From Erinaceus europaeus (lineage: Eukaryota > Chordata > Mammalia > Eulipotyphla > Erinaceidae), in assembly GCF_950295315.1 (NCBI RefSeq), contig NC_080172.1, forward strand, positions 78,883,118 to 78,947,117: DNA of 64,000 bases. Direction: 5' to 3'. The notes below the pieces were generated by a model that saw only the letters and a program-made list of their open reading frames with translations, was not told the origin of the DNA and ran no database searches. A program made the position numbers and the translations under genes. This document shows positions 1-55,755 of this stretch, in pieces; position 1 is the stretch's first letter; each line of letters starts with the position of its first letter.

Positions 1-2174
1 TATTACAGTTATTGTTCCTTTAGATCTATGCCAAAATTACTTATAAGTATTCACTTTAGATTTTGCTGATGTTCTTTAGAAAAGAAATAGTCATGGGATA
101 CTTTTTATATTTAAAATAAATTGATTCACACACAAAGGAATAAATTTTCTTCACAAATATGCAACACTTGGAAAAAAGCTAAGAAAATTAAATGAAGTCT
201 ACTTTCATGCCACTGGGTTTAATATAAAACAGAGTCAAATGGTTTACAGGTGAAAAATGGTTGATTTAAATATGTATCATTTTTATAAACTTACACTATA
301 GCCTTGGGCCAATAGTATTAACAGAAAATTAAGAAAAGGAGCTCTGGTCATACAATTGTAGCACTGACCTGGACTCATATAGGACAGTTAAAAACATATA
401 TACTATAATTTTCCATGATAAATCTCTACTCTTCGCTTTTAATTTGTTTGTTACCAGAGAACTGCTCTATCACATGATGGTTCTGGGGATTAAAATGTTT
501 TTGCTTTCAGTAACTTTCATCTGTTATTTCTTGTGTTCTTTTAATGTTGCAACAAAGATTGAAAAATTAAGCATCAATTTAATGACTTATTATTTCATAT
601 GTCAATTACCAAGAAAACATTTCAACAGTTTGTTTCTATGGTGCTACTGTTCTGATGAGTACTTTATGTAAACATAGCCCAAGTGAAATACAGTAGATTA
701 TAATTATTGATTATAACCATAGTAATAATTTAATAAGGAGTCCTTATGAGATCCAGACTAGCCCTTTAAATAAACCATTGTGATGATTGGATTCAAATGA
801 CTCACTGATTCCTTCCTTTATTCAATAAATGTGGAGCTATTTGCTATACTAGGCATTATACTACAATATGATAAGTTGGCATATAGTTCCTCCAGTTTAT
901 AAAAAAAAAAGTCTATCTTGCTATATTCCTGCCACTTTGCACATAATATCATATTGGCACTAGAGAAATTCTTGCTATTCTTGCTTTCATAGTTAATTTT
1001 TCTGTCACTGCTTCTGCTAATAATAATATATAAAGTAAAAGGACCAAAATAGAATTCATCAAATCTATATATGTTTATGAAACTTGAGAAAACATGTCTC
1101 TGAATGGAGTTCTGTGTTCCAGAAGCTAAAGAAAATGGATATAAGAAAGGTCCTTCAGATGTCAGTACTTCACTGAGAAGAAATATATATGCCACATTCT
1201 GGAAGTACTGCCTACTGTCTTGCTCATTACATCAAATAGTTTCTGGTAATTTTAATCACTACTAAAATGCTAACAGCTCATTTTTAATGTCTAGTCAATA
1301 AGCAGATTAAAACATAAATGCCACTAAATATGTTTTAAATATCAGTTCCATTGAAATATTTCTAAGTTCTGTATCCTCTTAAAATAATCCTCATTCAAAA
1401 TGAGAGGAAATGTCACCCATATGAGCTTCTTCAGAATTTAAGCTCTGATTATACATGGAATTGTGTATTATATCTTTAGAAATTGAAAGTACCAAGACTC
1501 TTTGTTGATAACATTTTTTAAACTAGAATGTTTTTTATCATTGTTACAGTAAAAATTCATTTTTAAATAAAGTTGCACATGCTAAGTACATTTCTAGCCC
1601 TAATTAAAACTATTAAATAACTATTTAAGGATAAAATGAAACAAAAGCAAAAATGCACAACTATACAAGATAGTTAAAGGTTCTGGCTAGAGTCATAAAG
1701 AGATCATATCCTTTGAATACATATAAATAAAGAAAGGAAAAGACGTTTAAAATCATAAAAAAATAACTTTAATGATCAAGAAATTAATACCCTACTACAG
1801 AAATTGAATTGATTCAAATGTGGATTGATTGACTCTAAATATTACTTCTTTTATAACTAGTTTCAAATGTAACATATAAAGAGGACATCTTTCATAGGAC
1901 TTCCATAGAAACCTGATTATTGTCAGATTGAATACAGATAAAAGTGACTCAAATATACTTTCACATCTGATGCAGGATGAAAGTGATTTGTTTTTTCTGT
2001 TATCATAACTTTTATCTTATGAGTACTTACACTGAAAAGATCTACCTTTGACTTATTTTCAGAATAATTACAATACCTGGTTTAAATAAACAAGGATATT
2101 ACTACTAGAAATTCCTAAAATATTCATTTAAATAGACTCTTTCAAATGTATAGCCAGAGGTTGAAGAGACAGAT
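1..2174. other. Unique AT-rich intergenic DNA
   Basis: No coding similarity, RNA gene or young repeat is visible. Open frames here are short and carry no recognisable domain. Around 815-865 there is a weak match in antisense to the L2/MIR 3' end (TTCAATAAATGTGG followed by ACTAGGCATTATACT). Confidence 0.6.
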
Positions 2175-2285
2175 AGTAAACAAAAGACTTTCATGCCTAA
2201 GACTCCTTCTGTAGCCCATGGTTCAATCCGTAATACCACCATAAACAAGATCTGAGAGTGCTCTGGTAAAAATAAATAAATATGT
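2175..2285 (+). repeat. Type B tRNA-derived SINE
   Basis: It shows GACTTTCATGCCTAAGACTCC, a tRNA B-box-like GGTTCAATCC, ACCACCATAAAC and GAGAGTGCTCTGGT, and ends in an AAATAAATAAAT tail. The head is degraded compared with the copy at 2590. Confidence 0.75.
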
Positions 2286-2589
2286 TGACTATCCAATTTC
2301 AGCTTAAAAACCAAACCATTCATATTTGTCAGCCCTTATATCTTACACATATACAACAAACTTATATTCTTCTTAGTATTTCCTTTAATAAAACACATGA
2401 CCTGATAGTCCTATTAGAATCCATAAGCTAATATTTAGATCACCAACATAGCTTTCCTTTGGAGTCATTTTTCTCTCTACTTTCTTTTTCTTTGTTACCT
2501 TATTTTCTCTACAAATACAGAAACTCATTAATCTTTCCTCCCATTAAACTGGTGAAGAGAATTCTCATCAATCTGTCACAGATCACAGT

Positions 2590-2702
2590 GCATATGCAAA
2601 AAGACTTTCATGCCTGAAGCACCAAAGTTCCCAGGTTCGATCTCTTTCACCACCACAAACCAGAGTTGAGCAGTGCACTGGTTAAAAAAAAAAAAAAAAA
2701 AT
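2590..2702 (+). repeat. Type B tRNA-derived SINE
   Basis: It shows AGACTTTCATGCCTGAAGC, then CCCAGGTTCGATCTC (B-box-like), then ACCACAAACCAGAGTTGAGCAG, and ends in an A18 run. The uninterrupted poly(A) suggests a fairly young insertion. Confidence 0.8.
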
Positions 2703-5332
2703 GACAAAACTGAGCCACAGATAGATTCAGTCTTACTTTATGTCAGACACCTAGTCATGACGTGTCAGAATATATAAGAGTAAGTTGCTATTTAGAAGTA
2801 TTTCTAAAAGTGGACAGAGTTTTATTGGAATTGCATCCAAGAAAGCCTATGTAAATTAATAAGAGGAAGCAGAAATTCAGTCCACAGCAATTCACCATGA
2901 TGTTTCCTTGGGAGCTGGGCAGCCCCCAAACAAGCACTTTTTTGCTTAACTTGCACCAAGGCACCATATGGTCTGGCAGTGGCCCTGATCATCATTAAGG
3001 CACCTTTTGGAGTAGCTTGATTGAAAGGATAAGAGGGGCTTTAGAAATCTCCTGAGATCATTGACATCTGGGATTTCTGAAACTGAATTAGTTGAACCTG
3101 AAAGCAACTCAAGAGGAAAGGTCAGGCAGGTTTGGGTGAGAAATTCATGATTTGCAAATGTCAGCTAAGATTTGGATAAGCATCTGGCTTTTGGTTATAT
3201 ATCTGAAAATGAATAAACACTGAAATCTGGAGGATTCATACTCACTGGACCTAATCCACCCAGGATTTAACAGCCAGAAAAGAAATGATGGTTATGGCAT
3301 GAATTTCATAAACTTTTAAATCATTTACACACAAAAACAAAGAAGCACATATGTATATGTCTGCATACATATATAAACATGTCTATACATATTCCGCACA
3401 CACACACAAATGTGTATATGTCTATGCATTTCATGTATATATGCATGTAGGCTTGGGTGTGTGAGTGTGTGTATGTTTAAATATTCTAAAACATTGGGCC
3501 AGTTGGCCATGCATCCAGTTTCTCTTGGAAAAAGATCTGCTTCATATCTAATAGAAATATACAATCTGGTTAAATGTTGCTGGTAAAATGTCTAGCACAT
3601 GGGTGGATTGAGATTGTGAACAAGTAGAGAATACTAAAGCAGCCTGATGGAGATAGACCCTTTGAAGGGAGGCCAGAAAACATTCCATTCCAAAGAGAGA
3701 GGATACGCATTTATTGTTTCTCCAGCTGGCTAAGCAACAGCAGGGATGTTTCCTACTAAACAGCCTCATTAACATAAACATAACTACAGGGTAAGTTTTC
3801 AAGCTCATTCCAAGTGAATTCAAAGGGGTGGGGGAAGAAGGATGCCGTTAATATGCACAACTCATGCAGACAATGATATGAAGCTAATTCATTTCATCAT
3901 ATTATCACCATAGCATATTAACTTAAAAGAAATAATAAGACAACATGGAAATGTTTGCATATTAGAGAGAATTCTCCTTGTACCCTATTAGCACCATATC
4001 CTATTAGTATTGCATTAGACTACCATGCTGCAATGCTAAAATGATGAAATCCCACTGTGAAAACTGATATTGAATTCTTGTAATGTTTCAGAATCATTTT
4101 TAGCACTGCATATAAATAATTCATGTGAGCAGATCTAATGAATTGATGGAAGAAAAAAACATCCCTTGGCATTGTGAGTGTATTTATGAATGTAAAGTCA
4201 CGAGCAAGTCACTTTATCATGGAAGGTGGGCAGGGGCTGAAGTGTGACATCTATTCCAGAGTCAGTTAGTAATATAATGAGAAATTCTAGGTCAAGTCCA
4301 ATTGAAATATTTGTGAAAGTACATTTCCTTCAAGGAAAGGTGGCACAATATTTGTTGGCACTCTCTCACCCTATTTGAATCTAGATTGCAGATTAACTGG
4401 GGTAGGTACTCTCACTTAGATACACTAAACAGAATCAGAATATAAAAAATTATGAACAATAATGTATTTATCTTTTTTTAATCCCAGTGATATTGTTCAA
4501 CCCTTATCAAACTGAAATATGATGATCTAATTCCTCATCTATCACTACCACTGAACTGTACACACATGGATAGCAAGAACCATAATTTGCAGATATTTAT
4601 AACTCCAGCCCACAGCACAAAACATGGTTCTGAGTGGGTACTCAGTAAACACTGAAGGAATAGGTAAATGAGTGAATAAATGTATTTAATTCTAAAGATT
4701 CCAATTAAAAAGTTGAAATTAAACAAAGTGATGGATCATTTGTGATTGCTTCAGTAAATTAATTGTTTTATTTTCAGTGTTGAATTCAGTCAAATCAGCT
4801 ACAGATTAGAACACATTGTAATTGAATGGAGTTCTTCCAGAGTTAGACTCAATTGTTTTAAGTTCTTGCTTTAGATTAATAGTTTTTTAGTTCCTCATGC
4901 CACATATTGCATATTGGTGTCAGTGTGCTTGCAGAGAAGTAATCCTAATGCAATTTTAACTCCCCAGGATGGAGATTTCCTGCAAAGAGAGCTGTCATGT
5001 AAAACGTGTTTCCCTATGTAGAAATATTGCTGGCAGTTACCGTGAATTGCAGGGCATAAGCCAATGACCTGTTTTTGGTTTTCTGTTTAACAGGCTTGTG
5101 GGCACTGTGATTCTTTGCTACTACTCTCTGGAGTTCACTACTCTTGAGCTCCAGATCCCACATGGCCTATTTACCACATTCTACTCAGCAGACAGATCAC
5201 ACATTGCCCTCAGTTCCAGGCTTCTTTCTGCAGTTACTTGTTTCAAAGTTAAAGAAACTGGGAAAGAATAACTAACAGATTTTCCTAGAAGAAAAGCTAA
5301 ATTATTTTTATTATTTGTATGCCAGAGGCAAT
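2703..5332. other. Unique DNA with an L2/MIR trace
   Basis: Mostly unique AT-rich sequence. A CA/TG-rich patch lies at 3330-3480. At about 4580-4690 the plus strand resembles a mammalian L2 3' end (CTCCAGCCCACAGCAC, then GGGTACTCAGTAAACACTGAA, then GAGTGAATAAATG). No gene is recognisable. Confidence 0.55.
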
Positions 5333-7627: not shown

Positions 7628-7903
7628 GGGAGTTGGGCGGCTGTGCAGCGAGTTAAGAGCAGGTGGATGCAAAGCGCAAGGACCTGCTTAAGGATCCCTG
7701 TTGGAGGCCCCGGCTCCTCACCTGCAGGGGCATCACTTCATGAGCTGTAAAGCAGGTTTGCAGGTGTCTGTCTTTCTCTCCCCCCTCTGTCTTCCCCTCC
7801 TCTCTCCATTTCTTTCTGTCCTATCCAACAATGATGACATCAATAACAACAGTAACTACAACAATAAAAAACAAGGGCAACAAAAGGAAATAAATATAAG
7901 AAA
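7628..7903 (+). repeat. Type A tRNA-derived SINE with 14-bp TSD
   Basis: The head GGGAGTTGGGCGGCTGTGCAG is followed by the GTTAAGAGCAGGTGG tRNA-like region, CACCTGCAGGGGCATCACTTCA, a CT-rich body (CTCTGTCTTCCCCTCC) and the AACAACAG...AAGGGCAACAAAAGG tail. The TSD AAAAATTATGAACC occurs at 7614-7627 and 7904-7917. Confidence 0.92.
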
Positions 7904-8514
7904 AAAAATTATGAACCAAGATTCATTAAGTAATTAAGAGGAAAAGCTCCATGAGTGGAGAATAGAACAGGTCCTTCCACAAAACAACAAATATCTACAA
8001 CTATCAAAATTAGCAAAGCATACCAACTACAACTGAGACATCCTCAGAAGCACTACAGCCTCAAGGAAAAAAATAGATTTAATACTTCAAGTTCTGTAGT
8101 TGCCTAGACCATAGCCCTGAGTATACCTATTTTCTTTAGCCTAAGAATATAACATTTCAGATTTGTAAGATTATCAAATTCTGACAGTAAGCTTAATTTG
8201 TTTAAGCAGCTCTAAATATATATATATATATTTTTTTTTTTATTTCAATATCGAAGTTACCTACAACCTTAAGCCAGATAGATCAAAACTATTTGACCCT
8301 GTTAGTATCTAAGATACTATGACTAGTAGATACCCCTAAAGGACACAAAGCATAGTGAGGTCAAGTATATTATAGTAAATTCTAACTATTGGATTTTAAA
8401 GAAAAACAAGCCTCTAACTAGCTTGGTTATAGTAATAATTAACTATTGCCATTTTAAATTCTTTCTAAGACTACAAATAAATCTTTTCATCCTCTTTAAA
8501 ATCCTTATTTCTCA

Positions 8515-9484: not shown

Positions 9485-9493
9485 TGTATCCAT
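9485..9493. repeat. Left TSD of the Jockey-like fragment
   Basis: TGTATCCAT is repeated exactly at 11201-11209. It sits immediately after the tail that follows the stop codon of the reverse-transcriptase gene. Confidence 0.75.
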
Positions 9494-11200
9494 TCTTCTT
9501 CTTCTAGCATTTGCCCTTCTTCCGTAGCCAGTCAACAGCGTCAGGTTGAGCCTGATGTAAAGTCTCGAGACCTCCTTTGAATCTGGAGAGGTGGCAGTGT
9601 TGACTATGTGAGTCATAGTCTGTCTGTAGCCGCAGGGGCAGTTCGGGTCGTCTCTGGCTCCCCAGCGATGGAACATAGCAGCGCACCGGCCATGGCCTGT
9701 TCGATAGCCATTGAGGAGGGCCCAATCATAACGTGCTAGGTCAAAGCCGGGTTGACGCTTGCAGGGGTCTGTGATGAGGTGTTTGTTCTTTACCTCAGCT
9801 GACTGCCAACTCTGTTTCCAAGAGACTGGAACAGAGAAGTTCAGTGTAGGCATAGGAGACCAGATTGGGTGACGAGACGTCAAGCGTTGGACAGGGTGGG
9901 CGAAGATATCCGCGTATATTGGCAGGTCCGGTCGAGCGTAGATGTGGGAAATGAACTTAGATGATGCCACATCCCGACGAATATCTGGCGGGGCCATGTT
10001 GCTAAGAACTGGCAGCCATGGAACCGGGGTGGAACGGATGGTTCCAGAAATTATCCTCATGGAGGAATATAATTTGGAATCGACCAAGTGGACATGGGGG
10101 CTATGGAACCATACTGGGCACAGTATTCTGCAGTGGAATAGCATAATGCCAGAGATGATGATCGCAGTGTGGAAGCACTCGCGCCCCATGAGGAGCTGGC
10201 CAGTCTTGCAATGATGTTATTCCTTGCGCCCACCTTTGCTTCGGTTTTTATGAGATGTTCGTGAAATGACAGGGTGAGATCGAGAGTAACGCCAAGATAG
10301 ACTGGCTGGGCTTCATGCCGGATTCTCGTATCACCAAGCTGCACATTAAGCTCACGCGAGGCCAAGGCATGGTGTAGATGGAAAACAGATGATACCATTT
10401 TTGCAGTGCTAGGGATTAGTCGCCATTTTTTACAGTAATCAGATATCAGAGACATGTCTTTCATGAGTGTTTCCTCGAGGATGTCGAACTTGGATGCCTG
10501 AGTTGCACAGCAGATGTCATTGGCGTAGATGAACTTCCTTGAAGAAGTTTCTGGGAGGTCATTGATGTAAATATTAAATAGCGTAGGAGCCAGAACAGAG
10601 CCCTGGGGGAGGCCACTTGAGACAAGTCTCCATCTGCTAGACTTGTCACCCAGATGCACCCGGAATCTTCTGTTTTGGAGAAGAAACGATATAGTGTTGG
10701 CCACCCATGGAGGCAGGCATCTTGAGATCTTGACTAGGAGACCACGGTGCCAGACCGTGTCATAGGCTGCTGTGAGATCAACAAAGACAGCACCCGTCTT
10801 TAAATTCTTCTGGAATCCATTTTCAATGTAAGTTGAGAGGGCCAGGGCTTGTTCGCAGGTAGATCTTCCTGGGCGGAAACCAGCTTGGGCGGGTGATAGG
10901 AATTTCTCTGTAAGAGGAGAAATTCGTGACAGAAGCAGTCTCTCAAGGAGTTTGTAACACACGGAGAGGAGAGAAATTGGTCTATAGCTGGCAGCCAGTG
11001 TTTTTGTTTCTTTGGTTTCAAAACCGCTATAATCTTCGCACGACGCCAAACTTTGGGCATAGACTCAGATTCCAAGATGTGGGACAGGAATGAATCGAGC
11101 CACTTCTTTGCTGCGGGACCCAGGTTAAGAATGAGTTCTGGGGTGATGTTATCATAGCCAGTAGCTGTTCCCTGTTTAACCCTCTTCAAAGCGTCTTCCA
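9494..11200 (-). mobile_element. 5'-truncated Jockey/CR1-group non-LTR retrotransposon
   Basis: This 1.7-kb fragment on the minus strand carries the reverse-transcriptase and C-terminal part of a non-LTR element unlike mammalian L1. Its 3' end is a TAG stop followed directly by an (AAG)n tail, and both ends abut the 9-bp TSD TGTATCCAT. It is visibly richer in GC and CpG than its surroundings: 9901-9950 alone has six CpG dinucleotides, whereas nearby host DNA has almost none. It lies inside a family S copy and so arrived after it. Family experience places such sequences in arthropod and other invertebrate genomes. L1, L2, L3/CR1 and BovB-RTE are the usual mammalian LINEs, and it does not read like L1 or BovB. 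Confidence 0.8.
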
Positions 11201-11201
11201 T
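9504..11201 (-). pseudogene. Jockey-like reverse transcriptase pseudogene, C-terminal about 565 codons
   Basis: The gene would encode the RT domain and C-terminus of an ORF2-type polyprotein that copies element RNA at a nicked target. Conserved blocks in order are GYDNITPE near the start, YRPISLLS, QAGFRPGRST, FVDLTAAYDTVW (about 10750-10790), GLPQGSVLAPTLFNIY, the catalytic box, YLGVTLD, YSTAEYC, a W-L-P-V-L-S block and a Cys/His end (CPCG...HIVN). The catalytic box at 10516-10527 reads YAND instead of YADD, so a catalytic aspartate is lost. Reading-frame changes near 11005, 10115 and 9595 break the gene into four frames. The N-terminal endonuclease and ORF1 are absent through 5' truncation. 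It cannot make active enzyme. The clade (Jockey rather than a neighbouring CR1-group clade) is inferred from motif style and needs a tree. Confidence 0.82.
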
Positions 11202-11209
11202 GTATCCAT
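11201..11209. repeat. Right TSD of the Jockey-like fragment
   Basis: TGTATCCAT matches 9485-9493 exactly. On the element's strand this copy precedes the truncated 5' end. Confidence 0.75.
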
Positions 11210-48835: not shown

Positions 48836-49128
48836 GGAGTCGGGCTGTAGCGCAGCGGGTTAAGCGCAGGTGGCGCAAAGCACAAGGACCGGCATAAGGA
48901 TCCCGGTTCGAACCCCGGCTCCCCACCTGCAGGGGAGTCGCTTCACAGGCGGTGAAGCAGGTCTGCAGGTGTCTATCTTTCTCTCCTCCTCTCTGTCTTC
49001 CCCTCCTCTCTCCATTTCTCTCTGTCCTATCCAACAACGATGACAACAACAATAACTACAACAATAAAACAACAAGGGCAACAAAAGGGAATAAATAAAT
49101 AAAAAGAAAATATTTTTTAAAAAAAGAA
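48836..49128 (+). repeat. Type A SINE, full length, 16-bp TSD
   Basis: This is the best-preserved type A copy: GGAGTCGGGCTGTAGCGCAG, CGGGTTAAGCGCAGGTGGCG, CGGTTCGAACCCCGGCTCCC, CACAGGCGGTGAAGCAGGTC and an AAGGGCAACAAAAGGGAATA tail. The A box, B box (GGTTCGAACCC) and CpGs are intact, indicating youth. The TSD AGAAATGGACTCTCTG is at 48820-48835 and 49129-49144. Confidence 0.95.
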
Positions 49129-51166: not shown

Positions 51167-51456
51167 TAGGGAGCCGGGTGGTAGCGCAGCTGGTTAAGTG
51201 CACATGGCGCAAAGTGCAGGGCCTGGCGTAAGGATCCCGCCTGGTTTGAGCCCCCAGCTCCCCACCTGCAGGGGCGTCACTTCACAGGCGGTGAAGCACG
51301 TCTGCAGGTGTCTGTCTTTCTCTCCCCCTCACTGTCTTCCCCTCCTGTCTCCATTTCTCTCTGTCCTATCCAACAACAACATCAATAATAACTACAAAAA
51401 TAAAACAACAAGGGCAACAAAAGGGAATAAATAAAAAAATATTTTTTAAAAAAGAA
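51167..51456 (+). repeat. Type A SINE, full length, 9-bp TSD
   Basis: It reads GGAGCCGGGTGGTAGCGCAG, CTGGTTAAGTGCACATGGCG, CAGGGGCGTCACTTCACAGG and AAGGGCAACAAAAGGGAATA. The TSD AGAAAAATG is at 51158-51166 and 51457-51465. Confidence 0.93.
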
Positions 51457-52892: not shown

Positions 52893-54235
52893 TCTACCTT
52901 CTGGGAGTCCTGAGATTCCCAAACAGACTTGATGAGCCTAGACCTCAAATAATTCCCTCTCTCCATTGTAACCAGTCATCTCTATCAGGAATAACAAAAT
53001 AGACCCCTTTGTGGGCCCCCTAATTCCTAAATTGAGACCTTGCCCTCAACTTGGATCAACAATGGTAGAGAATGATCCATCCTCCGAAGGAAGAATGGAC
53101 AACGTACTCTACACTAAACCTGAGGAAGATGGGTCAATATTGGGGCAGCTTGGAATGTTCCTACTCATGACCACAGAATGTGAGCTCAGATCTACAGGGA
53201 TGCAGAGGTCACAGAGGGCTTCTATGCTGAATATGGGCCCCAGATCACATCAAATCTATGGGGTTTACAGTCAACAATATTTATACCCCTTTCCCATATT
53301 AGAGAGCTACTTTCCTGATTCAGCTTTCTGGTCCTTTTTCAGCCATGATGTCATCTCCCCTGACAATAATTAGGTTCCATCTGCATATCAGATTTCAGGC
53401 TCAGGGAAAAAAAAAAACAAAACAGGTATAGTCACAGGCCCTTTGGAATATAATTAAAACATGCCTACTAGCTATCTACAAAATGGAGGACCCCCCAACT
53501 CTTCGTCTGCACTATTCCAGCCTTTAGGTTCATGATTGGTCAACAACTTATTTGGCTTTATATGTTAATTCTCTTTTCAGCCACCAGGTTCCAGATGCTA
53601 GCATGATGACCAGACTTCCCTGGACAGACAACCACATTGTGTCTGATTCCCCAGAGCCCTTCCTCACTAGGGAAAGAGAGAGGCAGGCTGGGAGGATAGA
53701 TCGACCTGTTAACACCCATGTTCAGCCAGGAAACAATTACAGAAGCCAGACCTTCCACCTTCTGCATTCCACAATGACCTTGAGTCCATACTCCCAGAGG
53801 GTTAAAGAATAGGAAAGCTATCGGGAGTCTAGCAGTAGCACAGTGGGTTAAGTGCATGTGGTGCAAAGTGCAAGGCCCGGCATAAGGATGCATAAGGATC
53901 CCAGTTCTAGCCCCAGGCTCCCCAACTGCAGGGGAGTTGCTTCACAGGTGGTGAAGCAGGTCTGCAGGTGTCTATCTTTCTCTCTCCCTCCCTGTCTTCC
54001 CCTTCTCTCTCCATTTCTCTCTGTCCTATCCAACAACGATGACATTAATAACAATAATAAAACAAGGGCAACAAAAGGGAATAAATAAATAAATATTTAA
54101 AAAAACTAAAAAACATAGGAAAGCTATCAGGGGATGGGATGGGATATGGAGTTCTGGTGGTGGGAACCGTGTGGAGTTGTAACCCTCGTATCCTATGGTT
54201 TAGTCAATGTTTTCTTTTTATGAATTAAAAAAAAT
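52893..54235 (+). mobile_element. Family S copy, about 1.05 kb plus a SINE insertion
   Basis: It runs from about CTACCTTCTGGGAGTCCTGA to TTTTATGAATTAAAAAAAAT. Internal landmarks shared with other copies are CATCTCTATCAGGAATAACA, CTTTGTGGGCC, TGGAATGTTCCTACTCATGA, GGCCCCAGATCACATC, CCAGCCTTTAGGTTCATGAT, TTCTCTTTTCAG then CCACCAGGTTCCAGATGC, AGAGGGTTAAAGAATAGGAA and GAGTTCTGGTGGTGGGAACC. A type A SINE splits it at 53823. No conserved ORF is visible. Confidence 0.85.
53823..54114 (+). repeat. Type A SINE inside family S, 14-bp TSD
   Basis: It reads GGGAGTCTAGCAGTAGCACA, GTGGGTTAAGTGCATGTGGT, GTTGCTTCACAGGTGGTGAA and AAGGGCAACAAAAGGGAATA. The TSD ATAGGAAAGCTATC is at 53809-53822 and 54115-54128, and removing it restores family S. 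Confidence 0.95.
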
Positions 54236-55214: not shown

Positions 55215-55755
55215 TTAAATTTTTTATTATTTTATTTTATTTTAAAGAGAGAGAGAAAGTGAGAATGAGAGAGAAACTAGAGCACTGCTCAGCTCTGGCT
55301 TTGGGTGGGTCTAAAGATTGAATCTGGGCCCTCAGAGCCTCAAGCATAAGAGTCTTTTGCAGGGGTCGGATGGATGGTGGCGCAGTGGGTTAAGCACAAG
55401 TGGCCCAAAGCGCAAGGACCGGTGTAAGCATACCGGTTTGAGTCCCCGACTCCCCACCTGCTGGGGAGTCCCTTCACAGGCGGTGAAGCAGGTCTACAGG
55501 TGTCTGGCTTTCTCTCCCCCTCTCTGTCTTCCCCTTCTCTTTCCATTTCTCTCTGTCCTATCCAACAACGAACAACATCAACAATTGCAATAATAATAAC
55601 CACAACGAGGCTACAACAACAAGGGCAACAAAAGGGGGGAAAATGGCCTCCAGGAGCGGTGGATTCATGGTGCAGGCACCGAGCCCAGCAATAACCCTGG
55701 AGGGGAAAAAAAGTCTTTTGCATAAACACTATGCTATCTCTGCACTCCCTCGTCT
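55215..55755 (-). repeat. Type D SINE, antisense, split by a type A SINE
   Basis: The left part (55215-55361) reads ATTTTATTTTAAAGAGAGAG, ACTAGAGCACTGCTCAGCTC and GCCTCAAGCATAAGAGTC. After the inserted SINE it continues CATAAACACTATGCTATCTC. Confidence 0.8.
55362..55711 (+). repeat. Type A SINE, longest form, 11-bp TSD
   Basis: It reads GGCGCAGTGGGTTAAGCACA, CCGGTTTGAGTCCCCGACTC and AAGGGCAACAAAAGGGGGGA, then an extra 3' domain (GGCCTCCAGGAGCGGTGGAT, GGCACCGAGCCCAGCAATAA). The TSD AGTCTTTTGCA is at 55351-55361 and 55712-55722. Confidence 0.93.

Follow-up and report, generated by a model that had tools for sequence, protein, structure and literature searches.

A broken, 5'-truncated copy of a LINE in the European hedgehog, very likely Vingi-1_EE, and its likely horizontal origin

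Within a 64,000-nucleotide stretch of the Erinaceus europaeus genome (the window) lies a fragment of a reverse transcriptase (RT)-encoding retrotransposon, and this locus raises the question of which LINE it came from and how that element reached a hedgehog. The first-pass annotation, made from the letters alone, read the fragment as a Jockey/CR1-group element that had arrived from a parasite or other invertebrate. Its observation is confirmed, and its interpretation is partly supported. Taken as a whole, we consider it probable that the fragment is a copy, broken and truncated at its 5' end, of a 3.1-kb LINE, very likely Vingi-1_EE, which likely would have entered the ancestors of hedgehogs horizontally from what was probably an invertebrate host. 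The presence of this element in hedgehogs and its likely horizontal transfer are already known, and nothing reported here is new in kind. Few entries of a LINE into placental mammals have been proposed, and Vingi in hedgehogs is among them; a genome search gives the extent of its spread in a chromosome-scale assembly.

The features of the window copy are collected in Table 1. When read against a long open copy, the window copy is frameshifted, and three frames are needed to cover it. The middle frame (335 aa, minus strand) carries the RT match; Pfam gives no match for the two frames that flank it, one holding the CPCG C-terminal part and the other the upstream part. Translation of the minus-strand frames also recovers the RT blocks quoted in the first-pass annotation, and its distinction of this LINE from L1 is supported. 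The catalytic box reads YAND. Among nine copies in which the long frame was read, six have YADD and the remaining three have YTND, YTDD, and YAND. Given its YAND box the window copy is likely inactive, and the box together with the need for three frames makes it look dead. The CpG richness that had been noticed at the locus is borne out by counting: the copy contains 62 CpGs in 1,707 bases (observed/expected 0.605, six of them between 9901 and 9950), versus 246 in 61,300 bases (0.117) for the rest of the window.

Table 1. Features of the LINE copy in the window. The RVT_1 coordinates are converted from residues 24-260 of the frame at 10057-11064.
Feature	Position	Strand	Basis
LINE copy, 5'-truncated, hedgehog, very likely Vingi type	9493..11200	minus	blastn and own-genome search
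RVT_1 reverse transcriptase domain	10285..10995	minus	Pfam, E 8.9e-31; translation
3' tail AAGAAGAAGAA, after TAG	9493..9503	minus	sequence; similar tails in other copies
Target-site duplication, upstream copy ATGGATACA	11201..11209	minus	flank comparison
Target-site duplication, downstream copy ATGGATACA	9485..9493	minus	flank comparison; first A common to tail

The own-genome search covered the 2.72-Gb E. europaeus assembly. A bitter-taste-receptor frame encoded in it agrees at all 310 of 310 residues with TAS2R10 of E. europaeus, which confirms the host. Of 8,704 first-look candidates 40 were scored, and these agree with the window query at 95-100%, the 100% match being the window itself. 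A 30-mer from the 3' end, with its CpG sites left open in the pattern, has 28,844 exact matches genome-wide, and a 24-mer from the RT has 6,187; the reversed control gives 0 in each case. Thus, the many dispersed hedgehog copies for which the first-pass annotation had called are present. Contamination, such as by the DNA of a parasite, or another assembly artefact is hardly credible as a source of such a family, and nothing was found in its favor: the matches number 28,844 across the genome, target-site duplications are present, and the contig that contains the window copy is 120 Mb long. For comparison of copies, 20 of the 40 scored candidates were fetched with flanks, together with six upstream regions among 40 matches to a 5'-end query. 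A positional sample was composed of 20 of the first 23 places in the 3'-end 30-mer listing, all on contig C1.

The complete element is about 3.1 kb long and consists of a short leader, one frame encoding an apurinic-type endonuclease (APE) and RT, and a (GAA)n tail. One complete genomic copy, L021, has 3,080 nt without its tail and itself carries a frame change; the window copy corresponds to its positions 1373-3080, with 96.9% identity over 1,708 columns (blastn), and also includes the last part of the (GAA)n tail. A 5' end is common, within about 30 nt, to the six upstream regions and to L016, L017, and L021. In L021 the long frame has its first ATG at position 93, and the reading frame ends at the tail. 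With the common 5' end only about 92 nt before that ATG, there is no ORF1 upstream of the long frame. In L027, a 941-aa frame, of which the first 36 or so residues are flank, contains the APE and RT domains in one protein (Pfam PF14529, PF03372, PF00078). RNase H was not found, at E values up to 1 in Pfam, either in this frame or in the 641-aa frame of L025, which extends to the C-terminus of the element.

The copies have a common 3' end and differ in their 5' truncation. The window copy is bounded on either side by a 9-bp target-site duplication. A total of 41 copies were examined for such duplications, and 7 whose 5' end lay beyond the fetched stretch were left out; 23 of the 34 with both flanks available have exact flanking duplications of at least 7 bp (7-14 bp), against 5.4% of mismatched flank pairs used as a control. 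In two copies (L038 and L050) the register of the match is doubtful. The element is a LINE (non-LTR retrotransposon), having APE and RT in one protein, 5' truncation, a common 3' end, and duplications of variable length. By analogy with LINE biology, the element's protein would nick the target and reverse transcription of the element's own RNA would be primed at the tail, while short copies that have lost the interior but retain the two ends would be mobilised in trans.

Which LINE this is can be asked of its anatomy. Jockey elements have an ORF1 with zinc knuckles upstream of ORF2, and the Vingi clade differs from its sister clade, Ingi, by the absence of RNase H. In 2011 Kojima, Kapitonov and Jurka, who published Vingi-1_EE from the hedgehog, reportedly described Vingi as a clade without RNase H that includes internally deleted families and was absent from the other mammals then sequenced; horizontal transfer is said to have been implied in that work and vertical descent not excluded. 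The short, non-autonomous N-families of Vingi-1_EE presumably arose by internal deletion. The element described here has the hedgehog as its host and young copies, both long frames lack an RNase H family, and 2 of the 20 positional copies are short derivatives of the non-autonomous kind, as judged from their structure. The upstream ORF1 of Jockey is absent. Vingi-1_EE and its N-families thus resemble the element in host species and youth and, reportedly, in lacking RNase H and in having internally deleted derivatives, and there is no known difference between the two. Since host, age, anatomy, and derivatives agree, identity with Vingi-1_EE is very likely; the name rests on these traits.

The two derivatives (L035 and L052) keep both ends and miss the middle: L035 retains 129 nt at the 5' end and 67 nt at the 3' end, and L052 retains 140 and 54 nt. 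Each is about 195 nt long and is flanked by a target-site duplication of its own, and the junctions of the two differ. Judged from this structure, they are likely members of the Vingi-1N families. In E. europaeus, Vingi-1N3_EE has 311 copies under 1% divergence (PMC3183009).

The label Jockey/CR1, as given in the first-pass annotation, is probably wrong, given the single APE-RT frame, the missing upstream ORF1 and RNase H, and the internally deleted derivatives, which point to Vingi. It would be retained if the copies belonged to a true Jockey or CR1-group element distinct from Vingi-1_EE, and the annotation of an African hedgehog could be cited in its favor: Table 1 of PMC12026660 has a row "I-Jockey" with 4,476 copies and 2.2 Mb, and no Vingi row. 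However, no ORF1 lies upstream of the common 5' end, and a hedgehog Vingi is in print with N-families (PMC3183009), as the deleted derivatives here would be, so that a distinct Jockey or CR1 element is quite improbable. Both the "I-Jockey" row and the present element are erinaceid LINEs that belong to the I/Jockey group and not to L1, and the row may be the same element, filed by that pipeline under another label. Its 4,476 copies stand against 28,844 exact 3' ends here, numbers obtained by differing methods. An "unknown LINE family" in the same source was considered and set aside, since most of its lengths (up to 6.6 kb) and copy numbers, as described there, are unlike those of the present element; this comparison is by description only.

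The age of the family bears on its origin. Divergence was measured in a 3' part of 466 columns, from which 56 CpG columns were removed. The positional copies and the window copy have a mean non-CpG pairwise divergence of 2.9% there (1.3-5.4%; of 21 rows, 16 had at least 200 shared columns and gave 120 pairs). The 20 best-match copies differ by 2.2% on average in the same analysis (190 pairs). Because the positional sample was picked by an exact 30-mer, it is biased to young copies. A setting used for Neotetracus, 6e-9 with three-year generations, gives 2e-9 per site per year (PMC13052205), at which 2.9% corresponds to about 7 million years; at an assumed 4e-9 per site per year it corresponds to 3.6 million years. 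From these figures we infer a single burst in the recent past, some 4-7 million years ago if rates of 2-4e-9 per site per year are assumed. The claim that the element has not decayed in the way of an old one therefore holds for the copies sampled.

A search for protein relatives began from residues 300-941 of a long open copy and gave 1,510 matches, of which 120 were listed. The best of those listed (P0002) is a 582-aa protein from a 2,072-bp ENA contig that is 96% identical to the hedgehog element; it is likely hedgehog DNA in a metagenome, and its source could be another host. Apart from P0002, no closely similar element in a distant host appears among the 120 listed, the others having at most 62% protein identity. 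A species name is attached to only 11 of the 120, all of them arthropods with 37-46% identity: the pseudoscorpion Cordylochernes scorpioides (6), Uroleucon formosanum (3), Phlebotomus papatasi, and Aphis glycines. A second search, from a Cordylochernes protein, gave 2,562 matches; 23 of the 120 listed are named, again all from arthropods, with Diaphorina citri added. These arthropod proteins share with the hedgehog protein the combination of APE and RT domains. Vertebrates are found in none of the 11 and none of the 23 named rows (120 listed of 1,510 and of 2,562, respectively), which is weak evidence, as only 11 of the first 120 rows carry a name and relatives that lack one could in principle come from any animal.

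A first tree was built from 121 rows of the first search together with the query. In a 54-row maximum-likelihood tree, drawn from 174 LINE-type proteins with 1-3 rows per named species and a long-branched Aphis row left out, the hedgehog pair falls inside a 33-row clade with bootstrap 100, and the other 31 rows of this clade are environmental. The tree does not settle the nearest neighbor of the pair within the clade. The proteins of Cordylochernes, Uroleucon, Diaphorina, and Phlebotomus differ in that they fall outside it. Thus, the impression of arthropod-type relatives holds for every listed relative with a species name, whereas the nearest relatives are environmental and nameless. Since these reach at most 62% identity, no tick or other parasite is implicated as donor. 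The environmental sequences are the place to look for one. Among viral contigs (IMG/VR), P0003 and alignment A1 gave 3 and 32 pattern matches, and among GTDB genome contigs alignment A1 gave 87; no relative was confirmed in either set. Solved structures gave 15 matches, the best being R2 and L1 proteins (3e-13 to 1e-8 over the RT), and these do not help to place the clade. No donor of the hedgehog element is named in the available portions of PMC6542046, PMC7070016, PMC13052205, PMC12026660, PMC5753468, PMC3183009, PMC3747384, PMC7561263, PMC3391268, PMC9004415, or PMC3500645.

A horizontal origin of the hedgehog element is likely, and it has been proposed before: Vingi in hedgehogs is counted among "older likely horizontal transfers in mammals" (PMC3183009). 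The transfer put forward in the first-pass annotation thus finds company in print, but it meets no closely similar element in a distant host, P0002 being the sole relative above 62% protein identity among those listed. Vingi is present in locust transcripts as well (PMC3391268). A comparable case among eulipotyphlans is RTE1_Sar of the common shrew, likewise a LINE for which exchange between a eulipotyphlan and a parasite, in this case a nematode, has been proposed; it differs in being an RTE with nematode relatives, and, according to PMC6542046, it was not detected in the hedgehog. The competing explanation is vertical persistence, in which a Vingi lineage was kept in hedgehog ancestors, lost in other mammals, and then amplified in a recent burst. 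The human genome carries a Vingi fossil, X12_LINE (PMC5753468), and one pre-amniote Vingi protein fossil (PMC9004415), and Anolis carries Vingi elements (PMC3747384, PMC7561263). Mammalian ancestors therefore once carried the clade, and vertical survival is possible. However, the positional sample contains no older copies, its maximum being 5.4% (120 pairs, 16 rows, with sampling that favors young copies), and the named rows of the first search include no vertebrate. We regard vertical persistence as unlikely and prefer horizontal entry. A bolder form of the horizontal account, which we offer tentatively and would not yet expect to hold in full, is that hedgehogs acquired the LINE less than about ten million years ago from an invertebrate with which they still share their surroundings, that the family and its short passengers are still jumping in European hedgehogs today, and that its closest kin are to be found in environmental sequence data.

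One frameshift of the family is found in several copies. At a CCCCA site, residue 787 of the frame, 1 nt is missing in 6 of 28 copies (L011, L014, L015, L016, L017, and the window copy); in five of these the deleted base belongs to the CCCC run, and in the sixth it is the base that follows. A subfamily descended with this frameshift was considered and rejected: divergence is 3.58% within the six, 3.63% within the other 22, and 3.60% between the two sets, and no diagnostic columns for the six occur among the 28 copies. Since the six are no closer to one another and have no such columns, recurrent deletion (slippage) or ascertainment is likelier.

Some copies carry inverted pieces. In L026 (2779-3730, reverse-complemented where needed to the element's sense), an inverted 848-nt piece lies 111 nt inside the 5' end. 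It was considered as a lost ORF1 region and rejected, since its sequence is part of the element's own 3' end in reverse orientation; we read it as a self-insertion or a twin-priming product. In L029 an inverted 3'-end piece lies upstream of the copy, and in L009 an inverted 5' end can be read in the flank.

Elsewhere in the window, SINE-like repeats with CAA/ATAA-rich tails are present at 7670-7908, 48875-49128, 51214-51445, 53874-54099, and 55406-55636. They belong to families D5-D8 and D16, are 60-87% alike, and are, we presume, likely hedgehog tRNA-derived SINEs.
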